Shown piece by piece: positions 4,088 to 61,859 of a stretch of 64,000 nucleotides of DNA (positions are counted from its first letter, which is position 1; each line of letters begins with the position of its first letter). The stretch comes from Streptomyces katrae. GTDB taxonomy: Bacteria > Actinomycetota > Actinomycetes > Streptomycetales > Streptomycetaceae. The stretch lies in contig NZ_CP020042.1 of assembly GCF_002028425.1 (NCBI RefSeq), positions 5,307,560-5,371,559 of the forward strand, written 5' to 3'. The translations under genes and the position numbers were made by a program. Below the pieces are notes generated by a model. It did not search any database and was not told the origin of the DNA. It saw only the letters and a list, made by a program, of their open reading frames with translations.

Positions 4088-5461
4088 ATGCCGACCGACT
4101 CCGAAGTCCCCGCCGGCGGGCCCGCCCCCCGCACCGCCCCCCGCCCCGCCGCGTCCGGCGCCCCGGGTGCCGGGCCCGACGTGACGCCGGGCCGCCGCCC
4201 CGCCGCGTCCCCGGCCGCCGGGGCGCCGCCCGCTGCGGGGGACGCCGGACCCGCCGCCGCGGGGGCCGGTTACCGGGACGTGTTCCGCGTCCCCGAGTTC
4301 CCCGCCGTCTTCGCCGCGCACCTGATGTCCGTGCTCGGCGTCGTCGTCGCCGAGATCTCCCTCACCGTCCTGGTCTACCGCGCCACCGGCTCACCCCTGA
4401 TGAGCGCGCTCACCTTCGCCCTCGGCTTCCTCCCCTACGCCTTCGGCGGCACTCTGCTCGCCGGGATCGCCGACCGGTACCCCGCCCGGCGGGTGCTCAC
4501 CGCCTGCGACCTGCTGTGCGCCGCCTGCGCGGCGGCCATGGTCTGGCCGGGCACGCCGATCGCGGGGATCCTCGTCCTGCGCTGCGCCATGGCCTTCGTC
4601 GCGCCGCTCTTCCAGGGCGCCCGCAGCGCCTCCCTCGCCGACATCCTCGGCTCCGGCGAGGCCTTCGTCCTCGGCCGGTCGCTGCTGCGGATGGTCGCGC
4701 AGAGTGCCCAGCTCACCGGCTTCGGCCTCGGCGGCCTGCTGCTGACCGTCACGGCCCCGCGCGGGGCGATCGCCCTCACCGCCGCCGGGTTCCTGGCCTC
4801 CGCCCTGCTGCTGCGCCTGGGCACCCGCCCCCGGCCCGCCCGCGCCGGGGCCGTCCGGCATTCCGCGCTCGGCGGGCTGCGCGCCGTGTTCGGGAACCGC
4901 CGGCTGCGCGCCCTGACCCTGCTGTGCTGGATGCCGTCCGCCTTCACCGTCGTCCCGGAGGCCCTGCTCACCCCCTACGCCGACGGCATCGGCGCCGGGA
5001 CCGTCACCCTCGGGATCCTGATGTGCGCCCTTCCCGTGGGCACCATCGCGGGTGAACTCTGGGCCGGCTCCGCCCTCACCGCGCGGACGCGGGCGCGGAT
5101 CACCGCCCCGCTGGCCGCCGTCTGCCTGCTCCCCCTCCTCCTGTATGCGCTCCGCCCCGGCCCCGTCGCCGTCGCGGTGGCGCTGGTCCTGGCCGGGCTG
5201 GCGCACGCCCATGCCCTCGGCGTCGACCGGATGTACGTGGACGCCGTCCCCGACGAGCTGCGGGGCCGGGCGATGACCCTGCTGAGCACCGGGGTGATGA
5301 CCCTCCAGGGGGTGGGCATGGCGCTGGCCGGAGCCGCCGCCGAGGTCTTCCCCGCCCATGCCGTCGTGGCCGGGTCGGCCGTGCTCGGCACCCTCGTCAT
5401 CCTCGTCCTGCTCGCGGAGCTCCGCGCCACCGGGGCCCGTGCCGGGCGGGCCGAAGAGTGA
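4088..5461 (+). CDS. MFS transporter
   Basis: A 457-residue major facilitator protein. I chose ATG 4088 (MPTDSEV) because GGAAGG lies upstream; the longer frame from 3989 reads through the promoter of the divergent gene. The first 60 residues are a Pro/Ala/Gly-rich tail, then about 12 hydrophobic helices begin at FPAVFAAHLMSVLGVVVAEI. The cytoplasmic loop 2-3 motif is ADRYPARRVL. Related Streptomyces proteins are usually called efflux pumps; substrate unknown. The divergent DUF5937 regulator is the likely controller. The next gene (MarR) starts 43 bp after the stop. Confidence 0.85.
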   Translation: MPTDSEVPAGGPAPRTAPRPAASGAPGAGPDVTPGRRPAASPAAGAPPAAGDAGPAAAGAGYRDVFRVPEFPAVFAAHLMSVLGVVVAEISLTVLVYRATGSPLMSALTFALGFLPYAFGGTLLAGIADRYPARRVLTACDLLCAACAAAMVWPGTPIAGILVLRCAMAFVAPLFQGARSASLADILGSGEAFVLGRSLLRMVAQSAQLTGFGLGGLLLTVTAPRGAIALTAAGFLASALLLRLGTRPRPARAGAVRHSALGGLRAVFGNRRLRALTLLCWMPSAFTVVPEALLTPYADGIGAGTVTLGILMCALPVGTIAGELWAGSALTARTRARITAPLAAVCLLPLLLYALRPGPVAVAVALVLAGLAHAHALGVDRMYVDAVPDELRGRAMTLLSTGVMTLQGVGMALAGAAAEVFPAHAVVAGSAVLGTLVILVLLAELRATGARAGRAEE

Positions 5462-51830: not shown

Positions 51831-53051
51831 ATGGTGACGACAGCAGCTATGGGCGACGGGGCCGGGTACGCCCGGTACACCTACCGGCTGCGCGTGTCGT
51901 CCACCGCCCGGACCCGCCTGGAGGGCGAGTGGGCGCGCTGTCGCTGGGTGTGGAACGAGTGCGTGGCGATGTCCCGCAAGGTCCACGGTCTGAACAAGGC
52001 CAGGGGCGGGAAGATCACGTGTGGTCCGGCGCAGCTGGACAAAATGCTGACCCGGGCCCGTGGGCCGATGCCCTGGCTGCGTGAGGGCGCTTCGGTTCCG
52101 CAGCAGCAGACCATCCGGGATTTCGCGAAGTCCCGAGCGAAGGCGCTCGGGGACATCAAGGCGAAGCTGCCGATGCGGCAGGGGGCTGGGATGCCCCGTA
52201 TCAAGCGGAAGCGGAGACCATCCCCCACCCTCAACTACACCCAGCGGGGATTCCGTCTGCGTGGTGGCCGTCTGCACTTGGCCGGTGGGATCGAGCTGAC
52301 GGTGGTGTGGTCCCGGGACCTCCCGGCGACGCCCACGTCGGTACGCGTGTACCAGGACAGCCTCGACCGCTGGTACGCCTCGTTCGTCGTCGCCACCGAC
52401 ACCGTCCCGCTGCCCGCCACCGGTAAGGTGATCGGGATCGACTGGGGCGTGAAGGAGACTGCGACCACCACCTCCGAGGCCCACGATCTGCCGCATGCCG
52501 AGCACGGCAGAAGGGCCGCACAGCGCCTGGCCCGCTACCAGCGGATGATGGCCCGACGCGCGACGCCGAAGAACCGGCCCGACACCGCCGGATACCGCAA
52601 AGCCCGCAGGGCTGCGGCGAGGGAGTCGAAGAAGCTGGCCCGGCAGCGGCAAGACACCGCCCGCAAGTGGGCCAAGACAGTCGTACGCGACCACGACCAG
52701 CTCGCGGTGGAGGACTTCCGGCCGAAATTCCTTGCGAAGTCCACGATGACACGCAAGGCCGCCGACGCCGCCATCTCGGCGACGAAGACTGCGCTGGTCG
52801 AGATGGCCCGCAAACACGGCCGCACTGTGCACCTGGTCCCCCCTGCGCACACCACCATGGATTGCGCACGGTGCGGAGCGAGAGCCAAGCACGCACTCCC
52901 CCTCTCCGAAAGAACGTATACGTGCACCACGTGCGGCACGGTGTCCCCGAGGGACAAGAACTCCGCCCATGTGATGCTCGTCCGGGCTGGTCTCAACCCG
53001 GCTGATGCTGATCTTGTAAGACCTGCCCCTGCTAGGGGGTGGGCGAAGTGA
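51831..53051 (+). CDS. tnpB: RNA-guided endonuclease TnpB
   Basis: A 406-residue TnpB. RuvC-like catalytic residues are all present: Asp in IGIDWGVKETAT (about 203), Glu in LAVEDFRPKF (about 293) and Asp in PRDKNSAHVML (about 375). The zinc finger is intact: CARCGARAKH and CTTCGTVS (about 345-365). The N-terminal half has the wedge/REC part (RWVWNECVAMSRKVHGLNKA, QQQTIRDFAKSRAKALGDIK). TnpB proteins cut DNA next to a target-adjacent motif using an omega-RNA made from the right end of the element. Start ATG 51831 or GTG 51834. It inserted into the EPS locus between a GT4 gene and the acetyltransferase. Confidence 0.93.
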   Translation: MVTTAAMGDGAGYARYTYRLRVSSTARTRLEGEWARCRWVWNECVAMSRKVHGLNKARGGKITCGPAQLDKMLTRARGPMPWLREGASVPQQQTIRDFAKSRAKALGDIKAKLPMRQGAGMPRIKRKRRPSPTLNYTQRGFRLRGGRLHLAGGIELTVVWSRDLPATPTSVRVYQDSLDRWYASFVVATDTVPLPATGKVIGIDWGVKETATTTSEAHDLPHAEHGRRAAQRLARYQRMMARRATPKNRPDTAGYRKARRAAARESKKLARQRQDTARKWAKTVVRDHDQLAVEDFRPKFLAKSTMTRKAADAAISATKTALVEMARKHGRTVHLVPPAHTTMDCARCGARAKHALPLSERTYTCTTCGTVSPRDKNSAHVMLVRAGLNPADADLVRPAPARGWAK

Positions 53052-53715: not shown

Positions 53716-55227
53716 GTGGCTACGGACATACGCACGCCCAGCGTGAAAGCGGCGCCCCCGGCATCCGTGGACGAGGCCCAGTGGGGGCGGGTCACCACCC
53801 CGCGCACCCTCCTCTCCCGCGCCCTGTCCGTGCCGCTCGCGCTCGGATTCACCGTGTTCCTGCCGGTGTTCGTCGCCGCACAGTCCGGCGACGGGCAGGA
53901 GGACGCCGCGTTCTGGCTCCAGCTCGTGCTCACCATGTACGCGGGCGCGCGCCTCTCCGCCATGGTGCTGACCAGCCGCCGCAAGCTCCTCCAGGGCTCC
54001 TTCTGGCTGTTCGTCTACATGGCCATGGGCGTGGCCCCGCTCGCCCAGGCCGTCCTCGGCCGCGTCCCGACCCCCGTCGTCGGACCGCGCTCCGACCTCA
54101 CCCTCGCCATCGGCCTGGTCCTCCTCGGCTGCACCGCCTTCGACGTCGGCGTGCTCCTCGCCCGCCACCGCCCTGCCGGGCGCGCGGGCGGCTCCCCGAA
54201 GGAACCCCGGCCCGTCATGGCACACCGGCGCCGGCTCCAGCTCCTGACCGCCATCGCCTTCGTGTGCAGCGCCGCGTTCATCCTCAAGCTGGGCGGGCCC
54301 GCCGTCTTCTTCTCCAGCCGCCAGGAGATCATCGCCGGCATCCAGGACGCGGGTGTCTCCAACGGCGACGGCCAGGCCGGCCAGGCCCTGCTGCGCGGCT
54401 TCGGCACGGTGCCGGCGCTGCTCGCCATGCTGCTGTACACACGCTGGCTGATCACCTCGACGTACGCCCGCCGCAAGGTGTCCGTCATCGTCACCTGGGC
54501 GGCGCTCCTCGCCCTCAACCTCGTCGTCAACAACCCGATCTCGAACCCGCGCTACTGGTTCCTGACGGTCATGTTCGCGATGCTGTTCACCCTCTTCCCG
54601 GTCAGCGCCGCCATGTACCGCGTCGCACTGTCCATGGCCGTGGTCGTCGCCCTCCTCGTCTTCCCCTTCGCGGACCGCTTCCGCTACGACGAGAAGAACT
54701 ACAAGCCCGTCGAGACGACCTCGTTCCTGGAGCCGATGGCGCTCAAGGACTACGACCAGATCGGCATGTTCGCCAACACCATCACCTTCTCCGAATCCGG
54801 CCCCGGCCACTTCTACGGCCGCCAGCTCGCCGGCTCCGTCTTCTTCGCGGTGCCCCGCTCGGTGTGGCCGGGCAAGCCGCGCGACACGGGCGTGATGGTC
54901 GGCCAGTGGATGGGAACGGTCAACACCAACCTCTCCTCCCCGATCTGGGCCGAGCTGTGGCTGGACTTCGGCCCCCTCGGCATGGGCGCCGGCCTGCTGG
55001 CCATCGGCTACGCCGCCGCCCGCGTCGACCGCCGCTACGCGAAGCGCGCCACCCGCCGCTCACCGCCGGGCAGCCTGATCTCGGTGGTGGTGCCGCTCGT
55101 CGCGGGCTACTCGTTCATCCTGCTGCGCGGCCCGCTCCTGCAGGCCTCGGGCCGCGTCGCCATCGCCGCGATGTGCCTGGCCCTGGTGGCGACGTACCGC
55201 ACGGACAGGAACATCACCCTGCGCTGA
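53716..55227 (+). CDS. Wzy-like EPS polymerase (O-antigen ligase/polymerase type)
   Basis: A 503-residue integral membrane protein with about 10-12 helices. A large extracellular loop (about residues 315-395) contains RYDEKNYKPVETTSFLEPMA and FYGRQLAGSVFFAVPRSVWPGKPRDTG; this combination is typical of oligosaccharide repeat-unit polymerases that act after the flippase. GTG 53716 is preceded by GGGGTGGGGG; the long frame upstream reads through the divergent gene and is spurious. A repeated element starts 18 bp after the stop. Confidence 0.82.
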   Translation: MATDIRTPSVKAAPPASVDEAQWGRVTTPRTLLSRALSVPLALGFTVFLPVFVAAQSGDGQEDAAFWLQLVLTMYAGARLSAMVLTSRRKLLQGSFWLFVYMAMGVAPLAQAVLGRVPTPVVGPRSDLTLAIGLVLLGCTAFDVGVLLARHRPAGRAGGSPKEPRPVMAHRRRLQLLTAIAFVCSAAFILKLGGPAVFFSSRQEIIAGIQDAGVSNGDGQAGQALLRGFGTVPALLAMLLYTRWLITSTYARRKVSVIVTWAALLALNLVVNNPISNPRYWFLTVMFAMLFTLFPVSAAMYRVALSMAVVVALLVFPFADRFRYDEKNYKPVETTSFLEPMALKDYDQIGMFANTITFSESGPGHFYGRQLAGSVFFAVPRSVWPGKPRDTGVMVGQWMGTVNTNLSSPIWAELWLDFGPLGMGAGLLAIGYAAARVDRRYAKRATRRSPPGSLISVVVPLVAGYSFILLRGPLLQASGRVAIAAMCLALVATYRTDRNITLR

Positions 55228-55245
55228 GGCCGGGTGGGGGCCCGC

Positions 55246-55669
55246 CATCTCCCCCTCGAGGGGCCGGGCGTTGGACGGCGCCTGCCCACCCACCTCGCGG
55301 CGGGGTCCGGGCGGGGCGGAACCGGATAGCGGCCGGCACCCAGGAGGGTCGGGGTTCCAGCCGGGCGGTCTCAGGGATGGGTTGGGGCTTTCCCGTCAGT
55401 CTCATCGTCCTTCCGCGTCGGGCCGCCCTGTCAAGGGCGCTCCTTCGTCGCGTCGCTTCGCGATCGCCTGCGGCGACCCTTGACAGGGCACCCCGCCGCG
55501 AAATGCCGAAGACTGCCGGGAAACCCCCAAAGGAACGGGACGGAGGTTCATGGGCCATGCGGCCGTATCAGCGACCAGGCGGGGACGCCGGGGGCGGCCT
55601 CGCCGGGCATCCGGGCCGCCAGGATTGCCATCCGGGGCCGCGATCCGCGCCAGATCGCTACGCGCTCCT
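55246..55669 (+). repeat. Left arm of a large inverted repeat
   Basis: About 420 bp that recurs in reverse orientation at 58471-58869. The middle 160 bp (about 55390-55551) differ at only a handful of positions. It includes a stem-loop with perfect 12-bp arms (CCCTGTCAAGGG at 55426-55437, its complement at 55477-55488). The arm starts 18 bp after the polymerase stop. No credible gene lies in it. Confidence 0.85.
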
Positions 55670-55786
55670 CCCGCCTCGGCGGCCAGCGGCCGTCTTGGGC
55701 CGGGATGCTCTCCGGATCGGCTTTTGGTACCGTCGCCAGCCCCAGGCGGCCGTGGACGCCGGATTTCGGCAGCGCGTAGCGATCTG
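55651..55786. repeat. MITE-like unit with perfect 16-bp terminal inverted repeats
   Basis: CAGATCGCTACGCGCT (55651-55666) and its exact reverse complement (55771-55786) bracket 104 bp without coding features. The same 16-mer recurs at 58474-58489 and with two changes at 58371-58386. No target duplication was identified. Confidence 0.65.
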
Positions 55787-55879
55787 ACGCGCCCCCAAGC
55801 CCGGATGCTGCTCAGTTCGTCATTTGGTGCAGGTATCAGCGCCAGGCGGGACGCGGACGCTGAGAGGTCGTTTTCGTCC

Positions 55880-56752
55880 GATGTTTCATCCGGGATGGGG
55901 CGTTTGGTGGTCTTCGCTGGGTCGCGCCACGAGAGGGTGTTCTCGTCGGCGAGGCGGCGGGCCATGAGGTCGGTCATGGCGAGGTTGATCAGGGCTCCGG
56001 AGCGGGTGGGCGGGGTCTCGTAGTCCCGGGCCAGGCGGCGGTGGAGCATGAGCCAGCCGTAGGTCCTCTCGACCGCCCACCGCTTCGGGATCGGAGTGAA
56101 ACCCCTTGATTCGGGCCTGCGGACGGTGATCTCCATGTCGATGCCCAGGGTCGCGGCGTGCTTGACGACGTGCTGGCGGTAGCCGCCGTCTACCCCCACC
56201 TTGCGGACGGTGGGGTGCTCTGCAGCGACCTGGTCCAGGAGCCGGGTGCCGGCGTCCGAGTCCTGCACGCTGGCCGCGGTGACCAGCACGGCCAGCAGGA
56301 GACCGAGCGTGTCGGTAACGATGCTCCGCTCACGTCCGACGATCTTCTTGCCCGCGTCGATACCCTGTCCGGCGGCGTGGACGCTGGTGGAGGTCTTGAC
56401 GCTCTGGGCGTCGATCACACAGGCCGACGGTTCGCCGCCCCGCCCCTCCTTCTCCCGCAGCAGCTGCCTGAGCAGGCCTTGAGCTGGGCGAAGATGCCCT
56501 CGTCGGCCCATTTGGCGAGTAGCCGTAGACCGTGTTCCAGGGCGGGAAGCCGCGCGGGAGGTAGCGCCACTGCACGCCGGTGCGGTCCACGTACAAGATC
56601 GCGTCCATGATGTCCCGCAGGTCGTGCTCGGGCGGCTGGCCGAAGTCCAAGGCCCGACCCCGGCGCTCGAAACGCCAGGCAGCAAGGACCGGCTCTATCA
56701 ACTCCCAACGGACATCGGACAGATCGCTCGGATACGGACGTCGCTTCGCCAT
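55880..56752 (-). pseudogene. IS5-family transposase with two frameshifts
   Basis: The N-terminus starts at ATG 56752 ([20 protein letters not shown], then [19 protein letters not shown]). After VYGY a one-base loss moves the frame to [14 protein letters not shown]; after that a second shift leads into [20 protein letters not shown]. The DDE residues are all present in the last frame: Asp in [11 protein letters not shown], Asp in KVGVDGGYRQH, Glu in RWAVERTYGWLML. No stop is met at the element end, so the original C-terminus is unclear. Two shifts make a programmed frameshift unlikely; I regard it as inactive. Confidence 0.8.
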
Positions 56753-56850
56753 GCTTCCGGCGTACCGCGACAGACCGAGTGCACCCGGGCGCACACCCGC
56801 GACGGTGGAAGCACACGACCGCAAGGCCAGACATCCTGGGATGAGACAGG
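55880..56850 (-). mobile_element. Degenerate IS5-family insertion sequence
   Basis: The transposase remnant is bracketed by similar ends: about 55880-55898 and 56832-56850 (reverse complement) share TGTYTCATCC with the flanking GGATG. These imperfect ends may be the terminal repeats. The element interrupts the repeated module that begins at 55771. Confidence 0.5.
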
Positions 56851-56852
56851 AT

Positions 56853-57086
56853 TAGGCCGTCTTCCATCCCATCGGCCACCTCACATGCGCCAAAGACATC
56901 GACCGCCTCCACGACGTCGCCGGCACCATGATCCGATACCCGGGGAATCAGTACGTACACGACCAGTCCAGGTGAAAACGACCCCTTGGGGCAGAGGCCT
57001 GGCGCCTGGCCGGACGGGCATCGCGCAGCGCAACCCATGGGGCAAGTCCAGGTAAGTGCTTCTGGGCTGGTCAGTAGGCGGTTCGT
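56853..57086. other. Non-coding or decayed stretch next to the IS5 element
   Basis: A 234-bp stretch with no complete gene. On the plus strand a 40-codon open stretch reads VFHPIGHLTCAKDIDRLHDV and ends at TGA near 56975; it could be a gene fragment but I do not recognise it. Two short similar segments, CCAGTCCAGGTGAAA and CAAGTCCAGGTAAGT, are present. Confidence 0.4.
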
Positions 57087-57839
57087 TCACGACCCGTGCC
57101 GGGCAGCGTAGATCACTTCAACGGCTGGACCGCACCCTGCCGGCAGCCCTGCCACCACAAGCCCTACGGCCTCCTCGGCTGTGTCGACGATGCTTATGGG
57201 AAAACTCGGATCATACAGCCTGATGACCCTCCAGATTCCCTCTCCAGCTGGGAAGATGCTGGGAACGTCACTTCCGGGAGTCGAGATCGTGCGGCGACGG
57301 AATTGCAGGGAGCCGTGGGTGACCCTGGGGAACAGTGAGCGCAATTCGGGTGTGGCGTAAGCGGCTTCCACCAACTCCTGGTCAATCAGATCGGGTGACA
57401 TGCGGCGGATCGCCGCCCATTCGTATTCCACACCTCTTCCCTGATCATGCGCCACTGCTTCGGGGGACACCCTCAAAAATTTCCAGCGGAGGGACATATC
57501 GGCGAGCGGGGTTCCTGATTGCCAAGCGTGAGCAATCTCGACGGCAACGTCCAGGGATGCAGTGGAACCGAAAGCCGCGACTCCAATCAGGGGCATCTCA
57601 ATCGCGATCTTTACTTCTCGATGCTCTGGGGCCAGCTCCAGTCGGGCATCTCCAAATTCCGCCTCAACGGCGGCGGCGAAATGAGTTGACAGACCTTCTG
57701 GCGCATGTGCCTCATTGAGGTCGACTAGTGAAAGCCCCAACCGCCCACTCGTCACCCGTAGGGCAGCGACCAGACTCCCGTCCTCAGCTGCCAGTTCCGG
57801 ATACAGACTGGGATCCGGTTTCATCACTCCATCATTCAT
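57087..57839 (-). CDS. DUF6193-like protein
   Basis: A 250-residue soluble protein. The C-terminal part follows the DUF6193 pattern: LVEAAYATPELRSLFPRVTH, SLQFRRRTIS, then the closing TAEEAVGLVVAGLPAGCGPA. Members are labelled natural product biosynthesis proteins in databases without known activity. ATG 57839 has GGAGG eight bases upstream; the longer frame to 57977 is unconserved. The gene and its flanks are clearly lower in GC than the rest of the window, which suggests transfer. It is the only intact gene in the inverted-repeat island. Confidence 0.75.
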   Translation of the reverse strand: MNDGVMKPDPSLYPELAAEDGSLVAALRVTSGRLGLSLVDLNEAHAPEGLSTHFAAAVEAEFGDARLELAPEHREVKIAIEMPLIGVAAFGSTASLDVAVEIAHAWQSGTPLADMSLRWKFLRVSPEAVAHDQGRGVEYEWAAIRRMSPDLIDQELVEAAYATPELRSLFPRVTHGSLQFRRRTISTPGSDVPSIFPAGEGIWRVIRLYDPSFPISIVDTAEEAVGLVVAGLPAGCGPAVEVIYAARHGS

Positions 57840-57989
57840 AACGTCGCCCTCCACCCCGCACAATAAAAATCTCAAACTATACGATCCGATCCCGGTGCGT
57901 GCTAGCCAGCACGCACCGGGATGCATATTTTCAGGAAACCCGAGAATGACGGGCTCGAGACTCCTATGTGAGCCCAATCTTTCAGCCGC

Positions 57990-58220
57990 CTATTGGAATT
58001 CCTTAAACGGGTCGTCGATGCGTGCCTCTTCACCCTTCCAGTAGAACTTGACCGATCCCCAGCTTTGCTCGGAAACCGAACCAGGTGTCAACTTCCTCAT
58101 GATGACGCCCAACTCCCAAGCCGTTTGCTGTCCGTCTGACGCCTGCGTCTGCCAAGGCTTTCCAGCAAGCGGGCGCCCACGAGCCCAGGTGAATTGGAAG
58201 GCTGCCTGCGCATCCGTGAA
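57990..58220 (-). pseudogene. N-terminally truncated small gene
   Basis: On the minus strand 76 codons read through from FTDAQAAFQFTWARGRPLAG to VKFYWKGEEARIDDPFKEFQ and a TAG stop. The composition looks like real protein, but there is no start codon: an in-frame TAG (58223-58221) directly precedes it, itself two codons after an ATG. It is the 3' part of an unrecognised gene, or a gene with a nonsense mutation. Lower GC than the neighbourhood. Confidence 0.55.
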
Positions 58221-58254
58221 CTATTTCATGTTGTTATCGAGAAGATGATCTAAG

Positions 58255-58362
58255 GAGGACGCGATCTTCACCGAGGGATTCGCTGCCGCCTGGTTCGTGC
58301 CCGTGGCGAATCTGTTCCTGCCCCACCGGGTCGCGCGGCAGACCTGGCGTGCCAGCACTGAA
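58255..58362 (+). pseudogene. Fragment of a DUF4328-type membrane protein gene
   Basis: 36 codons on the plus strand read FTEGFAAAWFVPVANLFLPH followed by RVARQTWRAST. The WFVPVANLFLPxxVxxxxWRAS pattern is the core of DUF4328 proteins. Both ends are lost: no start upstream and the sequence changes at the repeated module at 58371. Confidence 0.6.
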
Positions 58363-58370
58363 ATCAGAGG

Positions 58371-58489
58371 AGAGCGTAGCGATTTGATGCGCCCACCGGC
58401 CCCGGATGCCGGATCCGTCGTCCTTCCCTGCGGGCAGCGGCTCCAGGCGGTCGTCGGACGCTGAGAAATGAGGAGCGCGTAGCGATCTG
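58371..58489 (+). repeat. Two head-to-tail copies of the GCGTAGCGATCTG module
   Basis: AGAGCGTAGCGATTTG (58371-58386) and AGCGCGTAGCGATCTG (58474-58489) lie 103 bp apart in the same direction. The text after each resembles that after the copies at 55771 (plus) and 55666 (minus): GCGCCC or CGCG, then CGGATGC, then CAGGCGG or CCTGGTCGCTGA. Confidence 0.65.
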
Positions 58490-58869
58490 TCGCGAATCGC
58501 GGCCCCGATTCACCGGCTCATCGGCCCGGATGCTTGGCGAGGCGGCCCCCGACCTACCCGCCTGGTCGCTGATCCCGCCGCATGTCCTATGAACGTCCGT
58601 CCCGTTCCTTTGGGGGTTTCCCGGCAGTCTTCGGCATTTCGCGGCGGGACGGCCTGTCAAGGGTCGCCGCAGGCGATCGCGAAGCGACGCGACGAAGGAG
58701 CGCCCTTGACAGGGTGGCCCGACGCGGAAGGACGATGAGACTGACGGGAAACCCCCAACCGATCTCTGAGACCGCCGAGTGAAACCCCGACCCTCCTGGG
58801 TGCCGGTCCGCTGTCCCGTTCCGGGCCGGTCAGGCGCCGCCCAGCGCCCGGCCCCTTGAGGGGGAGATG
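58471..58869 (-). repeat. Right arm of the large inverted repeat
   Basis: Reverse-complement partner of 55246-55669, with a gap of about 20 bp in the outer third. It has the same internal stem-loop (58653-58714). The arm ends 9 bp from the flippase stop codon, mirroring the left arm beside the polymerase stop. Confidence 0.85.
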
Positions 58870-58878
58870 GCGGGCCCG

Positions 58879-60102
58879 TCACGCCGCCGTGCCCACCTCC
58901 GCCGGTGCCTCCATGCGTACCCGGCCCACCCGGGTCCACGCCGCCGCCGCCTTTGCCGCCGAGCCCGCCGTCAGGCCCCAGGCGGCGCCCGTTACGCCCC
59001 ACGCCGCGTACCCGCCCAGCAGCAGGGCCACCGACAGCAGGGAGAAGACGACCTGGAGCGACAGCGTGGCCCTCGGGTTCAGCACCCGCAGGGTCAGCAG
59101 TGCGCAGGTTCCCAGGCCCATCACCGCGTACTGGGCGCCCGTCGCCGGGAGCAGGGCGGACGCCGCCGCCCAGGTGTCGCCCAGCAGGTGCCGGCCCAGC
59201 CGGTCCGGCAGGGCGTACAGGACCGCCGCCCAGCCGGCGCCGAGCACCGCGAGGGCGGCGCCCATCAGGGCGGTCAGCCGGACCACGCCCCGTTTGCCGG
59301 ACGCCCGGCCCACGATCGGCGGGCCGAAGGCGTTGGCGGAGTTGAACAGCACGTTCAGCGGCCCGAACAGGGTCGTGGCCCCGCGCAGGGCGCCCACCGC
59401 CAGCGGGGTCGCGAAGGCGCCCAGCCCGAGCACCGCGAGCTGGCTGGAGCCGTTGCCGACGGCGAACTCGACCACGAACCGCTGCCCGAGGTGCCCCCGG
59501 CGCAGGTACGGGCGGACGTCCCCGCGCGCCCCGCGGACGTACGGGCGCAGCAGCCACACCCCCAGCCCCAGCGCGGGCAGCGCGGACACCCCCCACACCA
59601 GCACCAGCCGCGCGGCCGAAGCCCCCTGCGGCTGCACGGCCAGCGCCGCGACCACGCACACCAGCCGCAGCGCGTCGGCGGCCAGCGCCCGCCCGGGCAC
59701 CCGCAGGGTGGAGAAGCAGTACCGCAGCCCGTCCTGGACGAGGACCAGCGGCAGGACGAGTCCCAGCGCGAGGAACGCCCACCCGGCGTCGCCGGGCACG
59801 ACCAGACCCGCCACCGCCAGCACCAGCCCGGCCACCCCCGCCGCCCCGGCCGTGAACAGCACCGACGACCGGCACACCGTCCCCAGCCGGCCGGCCGCCT
59901 CCTTCTCCAGCACCACGGTCTGGCCGACATAGGCCATGTTCAGTCCGAGGAGCACGCTGAAGGTCACGTACACCATCGAGAAGTCGGCGAAGCCGGACGC
60001 CGAGGACAGCCGGGCGGCCAGCACCAGCACCAGGATGTTGGTGGCGCTGGAGGCGGCCTGGTCCAGGACCGAGGCGACCGCGGCGAGGCCCCGACGGCTC
60101 AC
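58879..60102 (-). CDS. Wzx-like polysaccharide flippase
   Basis: A 407-residue integral membrane protein with about 12 helices in the MATE/MOP style (GLAAVASVLDQAASSATNILVLVLAARL at the start; VEFAVGNGSSQLAVLGLGAF in the second half). It would move the lipid-linked repeat unit across the membrane. GTG 60102 overlaps the upstream stop (GTGA). The second part of the EPS assembly operon: GT4, Wzz-like, Wzx. The C-terminal tail is short. Confidence 0.85.
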   Translation of the reverse strand: MSRRGLAAVASVLDQAASSATNILVLVLAARLSSASGFADFSMVYVTFSVLLGLNMAYVGQTVVLEKEAAGRLGTVCRSSVLFTAGAAGVAGLVLAVAGLVVPGDAGWAFLALGLVLPLVLVQDGLRYCFSTLRVPGRALAADALRLVCVVAALAVQPQGASAARLVLVWGVSALPALGLGVWLLRPYVRGARGDVRPYLRRGHLGQRFVVEFAVGNGSSQLAVLGLGAFATPLAVGALRGATTLFGPLNVLFNSANAFGPPIVGRASGKRGVVRLTALMGAALAVLGAGWAAVLYALPDRLGRHLLGDTWAAASALLPATGAQYAVMGLGTCALLTLRVLNPRATLSLQVVFSLLSVALLLGGYAAWGVTGAAWGLTAGSAAKAAAAWTRVGRVRMEAPAEVGTAA

Positions 60103-61859
60103 CTCCGGCCCGTGCGGACCGTGCGCAGGGCGACGGTGTCGCCGCCCTCACCCGGCAGCCGCCCGCCGGTCGCGTCCGGCCCGTGCGCCGGACCGGGCTG
60201 CGCGGAGCCCGGCGCGGGGGCGGCGGAGGCGCCGGGGGAGGTGTCCCGCTTGGACCTCTGGCCCGGCAGCGGGTGGTGCAGCACCGCGCCCAGCACGGTC
60301 CCGCCGGCCCCGCTGATCAGCTCGCGGATCCGGGCCAGGTCGCTGCGGTGCACGGCCCGCGGGTCGCAGACGACCAGGACCCCGTCGACGCGGTCGACGA
60401 GCGCGAGCGCGTCGGCGTACGAGAGCACCGGCGGCGCGAGCACGACGACGGTGGAGTTGGGGGAGTCGGCCTCGGAGATCAGCCGGGTCGCGCGCGGGGA
60501 GGTCAGCGCGCGGGCCACGTTGCGCACCCGGTCGCCCGGGATCAGGTCGAAGGCGCCCGACTCCCCGGCGTCCACCACCAGCTGCCGCCCGTCCGGCCAG
60601 TCGCTCTCCCCGGTTCCGCCGCCGAAACCGTCGCCCAGCAGGCCCGTGCCGGCCGTGCTCCCGGCCCCGCCCGGCAGCCGGCTCCAGCGCGGCCGTCCGC
60701 CCGCGTCCGTCGGCAGCTGGCTGGCCAGTACCGGGGTGCGCAGGTCGGCCTCGATGAGCAGGACGTCCTTGCCGGTCTCGGCGAAGGAGGCGGCCAGGTT
60801 CACGGCCACCGCGGCAGCCGTGACGCTGCTGCCGCGCGGTGCGACGACCAGCAGCCGGCGCCGGTCGGCGAAGCGGGAGTCGTAGGCCAGCCGGAAGGCC
60901 ACCGAGCGGTACTCCTCGGCGAGCCGGGGATCCGCCTCGCCGGCCGCGAGCAGCGGGCCGCCGCCCGTCTTGTCCCGGGGCAGGTAGCCCAGTACGGGCG
61001 CCCGCAGGGCCCGGGCCACGTCCCCCTCGGAGCGCGGCGCGGGGTCGAAGACCAGCCGCACCCAGGCGGCGAGCAGGCCCAGGGCCAGGCCGGTGGCCGC
61101 GCCGAGTGCGAGGGACATGGGGATGCCCGGCCCGTCGGGTGCGCCGGGCGGGGCGGCCGGGCTGGTGATCCGGCCCGGCGTCATGTCCAGGGCCTGGAGC
61201 TTGCTGATGTTGTTGTTGAGGGTGTTGACCTTGCTCTGGAGGTCGGTCTTGGAGCCCAGCGCCGCGTCGCGGGCGGTGCCCGCCGGCATGTTGTTGATCT
61301 GCTTGGCGAGGTCGTCGAGCTGCTTGGCGACGGGGTCGCGCTGGTCCGCGTAGCCCTTGACCATCGTGTCGCGGGTGACGTCGAGGGCTTCCTGCCGCTT
61401 GAGCAGGTAGGCCTGGGCCATGCCGTTCGCCCGCTTGGCGGCCTCCTTGGGGGAGGAGGCGGTGTAGGTGAAGCGGAGCAGCATCGTCTGCGGCGGGTTG
61501 GTCACCTGGAGGCCGGCGCGCAGCGCGGCGACGTCCTTGTCCGCGACCCCGAGCTTCTTCGCCGCCTGCTCGGCTATGGAGCTGGAGAGGGCGACCTGCC
61601 GCTCGGAGCCGATGTTGATGGCCTTGTCGGGTGCCAGGCTCGGGTTGAACGGGTCGTCGGTGGGGGCGCGCAGCACCACGTCCGCGACGGACACGTAGGT
61701 GTCGGCGGTGGAGATGCCGAGGTAGACGCCGCCCAGCAGGCCGATGCCCACGCCGGCGCCGAGCAGCCTGCGGTAGCGGAGCAGCTGCTTGAACTGGTCC
61801 CTGAGGAGGTCCGGTTCGTCCTCGGGCGGGGCCGCTGCCGGGCGGTTCGTCTCGGTCAC
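60099..61859 (-). CDS. Wzz / BY-kinase-like EPS co-polymerase with degenerate P-loop
   Basis: A 586-residue protein. The N-terminal part is a chain-length (Wzz) domain with membrane helices at about 33-52 and 250-272 (the second includes PMSLALGAATGLALGLLAAW) and a coiled region between (QLDDLAKQINNM; TDLQSKVNTLNNNISKLQAL). From about 300 a CpsD-like nucleotide-binding fold follows: LAEEYRSVAFRLAY, then APRGSSVTAAAVAVNLAASF in the Walker A place, which lacks the GKS/T lysine, and VLLIEADLRTP at Walker A'. The C-terminus has no Tyr cluster. So it probably regulates chain length without tyrosine kinase activity. GTG 61859 overlaps the GT4 stop. Confidence 0.82.
   Translation of the reverse strand: MTETNRPAAAPPEDEPDLLRDQFKQLLRYRRLLGAGVGIGLLGGVYLGISTADTYVSVADVVLRAPTDDPFNPSLAPDKAINIGSERQVALSSSIAEQAAKKLGVADKDVAALRAGLQVTNPPQTMLLRFTYTASSPKEAAKRANGMAQAYLLKRQEALDVTRDTMVKGYADQRDPVAKQLDDLAKQINNMPAGTARDAALGSKTDLQSKVNTLNNNISKLQALDMTPGRITSPAAPPGAPDGPGIPMSLALGAATGLALGLLAAWVRLVFDPAPRSEGDVARALRAPVLGYLPRDKTGGGPLLAAGEADPRLAEEYRSVAFRLAYDSRFADRRRLLVVAPRGSSVTAAAVAVNLAASFAETGKDVLLIEADLRTPVLASQLPTDAGGRPRWSRLPGGAGSTAGTGLLGDGFGGGTGESDWPDGRQLVVDAGESGAFDLIPGDRVRNVARALTSPRATRLISEADSPNSTVVVLAPPVLSYADALALVDRVDGVLVVCDPRAVHRSDLARIRELISGAGGTVLGAVLHHPLPGQRSKRDTSPGASAAPAPGSAQPGPAHGPDATGGRLPGEGGDTVALRTVRTGRR

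Follow-up and report, generated by a model that had tools for sequence, protein, structure and literature searches.

An island between two convergent genes

The DNA considered here, referred to as the window, is a stretch of 64 000 nucleotides from Streptomyces katrae (contig NZ_CP020042.1, positions 5,307,560 to 5,371,559). Within it, an island at 55238–58877 is bounded by inverted arms, each ∼470 bp long, and separates two convergent genes. The left neighbour (53717–55227, + strand, start uncertain) and the right neighbour (58879–60102, − strand) were taken from the open reading frame (ORF) list. A preliminary description of this DNA had called them an exopolysaccharide (EPS) polymerase and flippase; since neither matches a family in Pfam (E 0.01) or NCBIfam (E 0.1), these names are those of that description only and are used here as labels. 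We argue below that the island is probably, although by no means certainly, a member of a dispersed, non-autonomous, foldback-type family whose arms recombine, inverting and probably exchanging the genes between them.

The presence of inverted repeats beside the two convergent stops, the central observation of the preliminary description, was confirmed. The best self-inverted BLAST match of the region scored 488 bits, whereas 30 first-order Markov resamplings gave no more than 41, and an inverted-repeat search returned matches of 255 nt (93%) and 50 nt (92%). The outer ends, 5'-GGGCCCGCCATCTCCCCCTC..., are conserved and were located at 55238 and 58877. The arms do adjoin the stops as described, but the distances given then, 18 and 9 bp, were based on borders set more narrowly; the polymerase stop (ending at 55227) is now 10 bp from the left arm, and the right arm is 1 bp from the flippase stop (58879). 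The near-identity reported for the middle of the arms also held, with 92 of 100 aligned columns matching from position 55337 and 97 of 100 from 55437.

The left arm (55238–55702, +), delimited by the repeat search, the outer-end motif and the arm alignment, consists of the outer end, a hairpin core and a first inward unit of ∼103 bp. Its palindromic core, CCCTGTCAAGGG ... CCCTTGACAGGG, at 55402–55512, was found in the inverted-repeat search and folds at −68.4 kcal/mol (z −5.5). The right arm (58358–58877, −; repeat search and outer-end motif) has inward units at 58358–58507, a hairpin core at ∼58628–58738 and its outer end at 58877. Thus the internal stem-loop that was said to be the same in each arm is present in both, although the right arm has an imperfect outer stem (GCCTGTCAAGGG). 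Between the left arm and the cargo, an oppositely directed unit at 55703–55865 (−; AGCGCGTAGCGATCTG at 55771), identified by the inverted-repeat search and by a match in reverse (L081, positions 4559–4725), marks a turn-round, where the inward direction of the single preceding unit reverses. The centre of the palindrome therefore lies to the left of the cargo, which interrupts the right half.

The cargo comprises a fragmentary IS5-type insertion sequence (IS), a DUF6193 gene and low-GC fragments, the first two as the preliminary description had them. The IS5 relic (55886–56790, −; ORF list and profile matches) is spread over several frames and its borders are approximate; its transposase fragment matches DUF4096 (E 2.8e-20) and scores 58.5 bits with the NCBIfam IS5 model, under the cut-off of 110. 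The DUF6193 gene (57087–57845, −; E 3.7e-26) encodes 252 aa and has a GC content of 60%, and the fragments at 57846–58357 have one of 57%. An RNA-family search of 55000–59200 gave a sole match at E 0.55, far under the gathering score, which was taken as chance.

In relatives the site is without arms. The left gene was matched in all 15 relatives searched and the right gene adjoins it in 14; the remaining one (G189) yielded no right gene over the 6.5 kb that were read. With BLAST matches to two arm types counted when they exceeded 55 bits and 60 bp, arms were seen in none of the 15, and in five relatives with the two genes adjacent (G054, G150, G087, G215 and G058) the stops are only ∼35–110 bp apart. 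The arms' absence from all 15 and the near-abutting genes in five indicate that the island is an insertion, most simply one gained in the S. katrae lineage. The island itself was not found in any of these relatives, in a fixed orientation with other flanks or otherwise. The interpretation offered earlier, inversion by arm recombination together with either a family of gene-end repeats that captured DNA or an element that inserts by its arms, is partly supported: the arms belong to a multicopy family, and the armless sites show that the island was inserted, be it by a transposase or by recombination.

Two further genes lie nearby. The gene following the flippase (60099–61859) has sub-threshold matches to EPS chain-length and tyrosine-kinase families, and the gene cluster upstream of the island contains an OrfB/TnpB-type IS605 gene (51831–53051, +; PF01385, PF07282).

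A dispersed family of paired arms

With the left arm as query, the S. katrae genome gave 157 matches, fragments included. Twenty loci have inverted pairs spanning 1,084–3,704 bp, always with the outer end outward, and at 10 more a single arm or a compact palindrome was detected. When 50 arms were placed at random, no more than 4 such pairs arose in 1000 trials. This disposes of the possibility, raised at the outset, that the arms are common scattered repeats unrelated to any boundary. The set used below consisted of 29 fetched genomic regions holding 30 element loci.

The arms share one layout. From the outside inward there is a sharp end, a variable GC-rich stretch, a palindromic core of ∼110–150 bp and tandem inward units of ∼103 bp carrying AGATCGCTACGCGC; most of the S. 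katrae pairs have ∼470-bp arms plus several such units. Copies without cargo (for example, L078) are palindromes of 1.1–1.5 kb, running from arm through units to a centre, and back through inverted units to the second arm, a form also known from foldback elements. The outer end has the consensus GGGCCCGCCATC(T/G)CCCCCTCGAGGGG. Ends were defined by this motif, a multiple alignment of the outer arms being too gappy to define them; allowing up to 6 edits, and with one antisense overlap dropped, it was found at 30 places in 22 of the 29 regions, with both ends present in 8. The core hairpin was recovered in 54 of the 126 located arms and has 20 consensus pairs, of which 15 never or almost never vary. 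Three pairs have changes on both sides that keep the pairing, and two of these three are also broken in other arms, so that covariation support for the hairpin is modest.

A small protein of ∼70–100 aa with the pattern ..RRRVRDIASG.EGELMAVINENVSD..AYIR..GREFTTAV.. recurs in or beside many islands (L057, L062, L068, L076, L191, L192, L230, L231, L232, L234, L238 and others). A Pfam scan of one copy and a PHROGs scan of two assigned it to no family; among the seven cargo proteins given to PHROGs, none was named.

The family extends well beyond S. katrae. A search with the L078 core, scoring two candidates per genome, matched 65 of 295 genomes of the genus (S. katrae included) at E ≤0.001 and 32 at ≤1e-10; in a first draw of 41 genomes, the left arm had found matches in 14 at E 0.001, several of which were weak. 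Inverted pairs are also present in the relatives G189, G054, G070, G215 and G150, and in Streptomyces lavendulae CCM 3239 both arms were found at 4 of 7 loci (8-kb stretches). A linear plasmid carries one arm-like stretch between convergent genes (63% of the query, 78% identity). Within G054, one pair of copies (L171 and L173) shares 98.6% identity over 1.15 kb in unrelated flanks, and another pair (L170 and L172) shares 96.1%. The loop of the central palindrome reads CAAAG in one member of the latter pair and CTTTG in its partner, as though inverted. A survey of the literature by titles and abstract openings, with subscription journals mostly outside its coverage, found no description of such a Streptomyces family among the papers listed.

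Arms resemble other arms of their own genome rather than those at the same site in a different species. Of 125 arms from nine genomes, 119 have their closest counterpart outside their own locus in the genome that they come from. The six others comprise two arms that are the sole representatives of their genomes in the set, and the four arms of one S. katrae locus (L073) and one G189 locus (L237). Same-site arms in different species reach similarities of 0.60–0.80, even though the matched flanks are ∼70–96% identical, and same-genome arms commonly reach 0.85–1.00. Within an island, the two arms frequently have closer relatives elsewhere than each other. Such a pattern points to ectopic gene conversion, or to turnover.

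Shared sites and changing cargo

Some sites are occupied in several species. Of 11 two-armed islands in G189, five share both flanks with an S. katrae arm site and three share one flank, eight in all. The FtsW/RodA site (L074) was searched in 15 relatives, of which 14 were readable (the contig of G058 ends there). Both arms are present in G054 and G189, one arm plus opposite units in G055 and G285, and one side only in G243; G070, G215 and G150 carry inserts without detectable arms, and gaps of only ∼5–80 bp are found in G087, G090, G294, G099, G012 and G273.

The cargo at such sites is variable. Twelve site groups could be matched on both flanks, and 10 had a member holding at least 500 bp of cargo; the L062/L231 and L068/L230 groups, matched on one flank only, were left out. 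In 9 of the 10, no 100-bp stretch of cargo is common between species. Four of these nine (L069, L179, L185 and L236) have unrelated cargo in more than one member, and in the other five (L058, L060, L061, L180 and L243) cargo in one member faces ≤211 bp in the other. At the FtsW/RodA site, S. katrae has a glyoxalase gene and G054 genes for a PadR regulator and an alpha/beta hydrolase. A GntR-UTRA gene occupies this site in five other genomes with collinear flanks, pointing one way in G189, G243 and G285 and the opposite way in G055 and G070. When G055 is compared with G285, the orientation switches at the innermost arm units. This inversion, seen between species only, gives comparative support for inversion by arm recombination at that island of the family. 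At a different arm site in G054 (L179) there is a GntR gene 85% identical over 204 aa to that of G189, with a shorter start, and G189 has a HAD hydrolase and an acetyltransferase at the corresponding place. Cargo elsewhere includes genes for a flavoprotein, NUDIX, CutA, DUF4097, mycothiol transferase and NmrA proteins, an aldo-keto reductase with a TetR regulator, an AraC-GyrI protein and, in one G189 island, a GDSL lipase with a DDE_5 transposase.

At the L083 site, each of 20 relatives (L144–L163) has 0.67–7.9 kb of other, armless DNA between the downstream hairpins of a convergent pair, and several relatives share blocks of it, so that this spot varies independently of arms. In G012, the gene left of L078 has its match in two pieces, at G012:C1:8453550-8454009 and 9032680-9033037, 0.58 Mb apart; one piece is near the contig end, and the split suggests a large rearrangement.

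Proposed routes of movement and comparison with known systems

The islands look like an undescribed gene-docking system. In the mechanism that we consider probable, host homologous recombination between the arms of one island would invert its cargo, and such inversion is predicted for the island in the window. Gene conversion between the arms of different islands would keep them homogenized, and homologous recombination between them would move or exchange cargo. New sites, such as that between the two EPS genes, would be founded by an insertion event, one tolerated mainly at the 3' ends of genes. A wider picture, which we hold more tentatively and regard as possible rather than expected, is a distributed gene-exchange network. 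Each genome would have tens of docking sites with arms kept alike by gene conversion, and accessory genes between arms could relocate to any other site, change orientation or give way to DNA arriving from outside, for instance on arm-bearing plasmids, through ordinary homologous recombination. The homogenized arms would then be a shared recombination address in place of an integrase.

Several observations weigh against the foldback-type interpretation. No target duplication was seen by eye at the 8 loci with both ends, although old or eroded ends could hide one, and no transposase or recombinase tied to the family was identified: the part of the cargo that was scanned held no shared transposase, and Y1 transposases (PF01797) had no match in the S. 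katrae genome in a search that was positive in 5 of 14 control genomes. Relatives of the DUF6193 gene at 12 other places in 11 of 32 genomes (S. katrae included) have no arm within ∼1.5 kb (3.3–3.8 kb covered at each). Old shared docking sites are not the rule everywhere, since two other S. katrae sites have arms in none of 20 (the L083 site, surveyed with a single arm as query at E 0.01) and none of 10 relatives (scored with two arm types, as for the island in the window). At the FtsW/RodA site, the inverted cargo of G070 has no detectable arms and G055, G285 and G243 have less than a full pair. In the L062/L231 and L068/L230 groups the shared small-protein gene lies outside the S. katrae arms, and three matched S. 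katrae loci (L058, L061 and L080) are single-arm, so that cargo beyond the arm would be missed. Exchange of cargo is suggested by presence patterns that independent gain and loss could mimic. That five of the nine groups without common cargo set cargo against little or none lowered our confidence in both arm recombination and the exchange network, to the benefit of the alternatives.

The likeliest of these alternatives is a classical transposon family, in which a transposase supplied in trans moves a palindromic, long-armed miniature inverted-repeat transposable element, the likeness of arms reflects recent bursts and turnover at preferred targets, and cargo comes and goes by incidental insertion and deletion. 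Besides these five groups, it would account for the sharp outer ends, the near-identical copies in unrelated flanks, the presence or absence of elements at given sites, and the IS5 relic and DDE_5 transposase among the cargo. We nevertheless think it unlikely: no target duplication was seen by eye at the 8 two-ended loci, independent insertion at the sites of 8 of 11 G189 islands would need a strong site preference, and mosaic arms, with left and right often unlike, fit gene conversion better. The positions at which cargo meets the arms raise another alternative, a site-specific cassette system in which the inner unit end (∼position 75 of 105) serves a dedicated integrase, as attC/attI do in integrons. 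Of 18 junctions that face the cargo in nine S. katrae islands, 9 are at unit positions 72–77, where ∼1 would be expected if they were uniform; they adjoin several different genes, and several junctions are directly at the stop codon of a cargo gene. Over all loci scanned the tally is 47 of 74, but this is inflated by cargo-free copies, in which position 74 is the native centre junction. Several junctions carry the same small-protein gene and are not independent, the other 9 of 18 lie at positions 84–105, and no integrase was found among cargo families in the scanned part, no genome-wide integrase search having been made. Such a system is improbable.

Still less probable, in our estimation, is that the arms are cis-acting gene-end repeats, terminators or RNA-stabilizing hairpins, placed by duplication, with pairing a reflection of convergent neighbours only. 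The neighbours of the S. katrae loci do lean this way: 13 of 30 loci lie between convergent genes and 1 between divergent ones, where the corresponding figures for 161 other neighbouring gene pairs are 27 and 34 (counts are approximate, with crude gene calls from a codon-score script). The stable hairpin, its mostly invariant pairs with some paired changes, and the plasmid copy between convergent genes point in the same direction. However, tandem genes flank 16 of the 30 loci, and several of these have paired arms, the inward unit arrays join in a palindrome, and at L083 ordinary gene-end hairpins persist outside the element.

Among known systems, repetitive extragenic palindromes (REP) and their paired form, REPINs, are inverted palindromes without a transposase of their own, moved by RAYT transposases. 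The Streptomyces family is likewise paired, inverted and without its own transposase, but its arms are much longer and have unit arrays and cargo; a REPIN/RAYT assignment was rejected, there being no Y1 match in the S. katrae genome. Integron gene cassettes are small accessory genes at a repeated site, whereas the family has one cargo block per island, many loci and inverted flanking arms. An IS composite transposon was ruled out, as the IS5 relic is inside the island and the arms are palindromic repeats common to the whole family. In Wolbachia, insertion sequences are reported to be inverted by recombination between their terminal inverted repeats, and DNA between the repeats flips with the flanks untouched, as envisaged here (PMC3004938). 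The repeats described there end known insertion sequences, unlike the Streptomyces arms, which are long and transposase-less, with changing cargo and genome-wide likeness.

In form, the family is closest to the Foldback/Galileo elements of Drosophila. These are reported to have very long, internally repetitive inverted repeats, copies with two arms only or one arm, sequence exchange among copies, and inversions (PMC3573991). The Streptomyces arms are similarly long terminal inverted repeats made up of internal tandem repeats, in a multicopy family that is present or absent at orthologous sites. The differences are that the family is bacterial, that neither a transposase of its own nor a target duplication was seen, and that the accessory genes between its arms change at sites that different species have in common. 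Given the lack of target duplications among the loci inspected and of a linked transposase, we describe it as Foldback-like and do not file it as a member.

Streptomyces genomes constantly gain and lose small accessory genes, and to our knowledge the routes of this turnover are often not known. If the interpretation favoured here is true, the repeat family would be a concrete and testable route for such gain and loss, and would extend foldback-type biology to bacteria. A class of variable spots next to core genes would then have an explanation, and work on strains of this soil genus could draw on the islands as natural landing sites.

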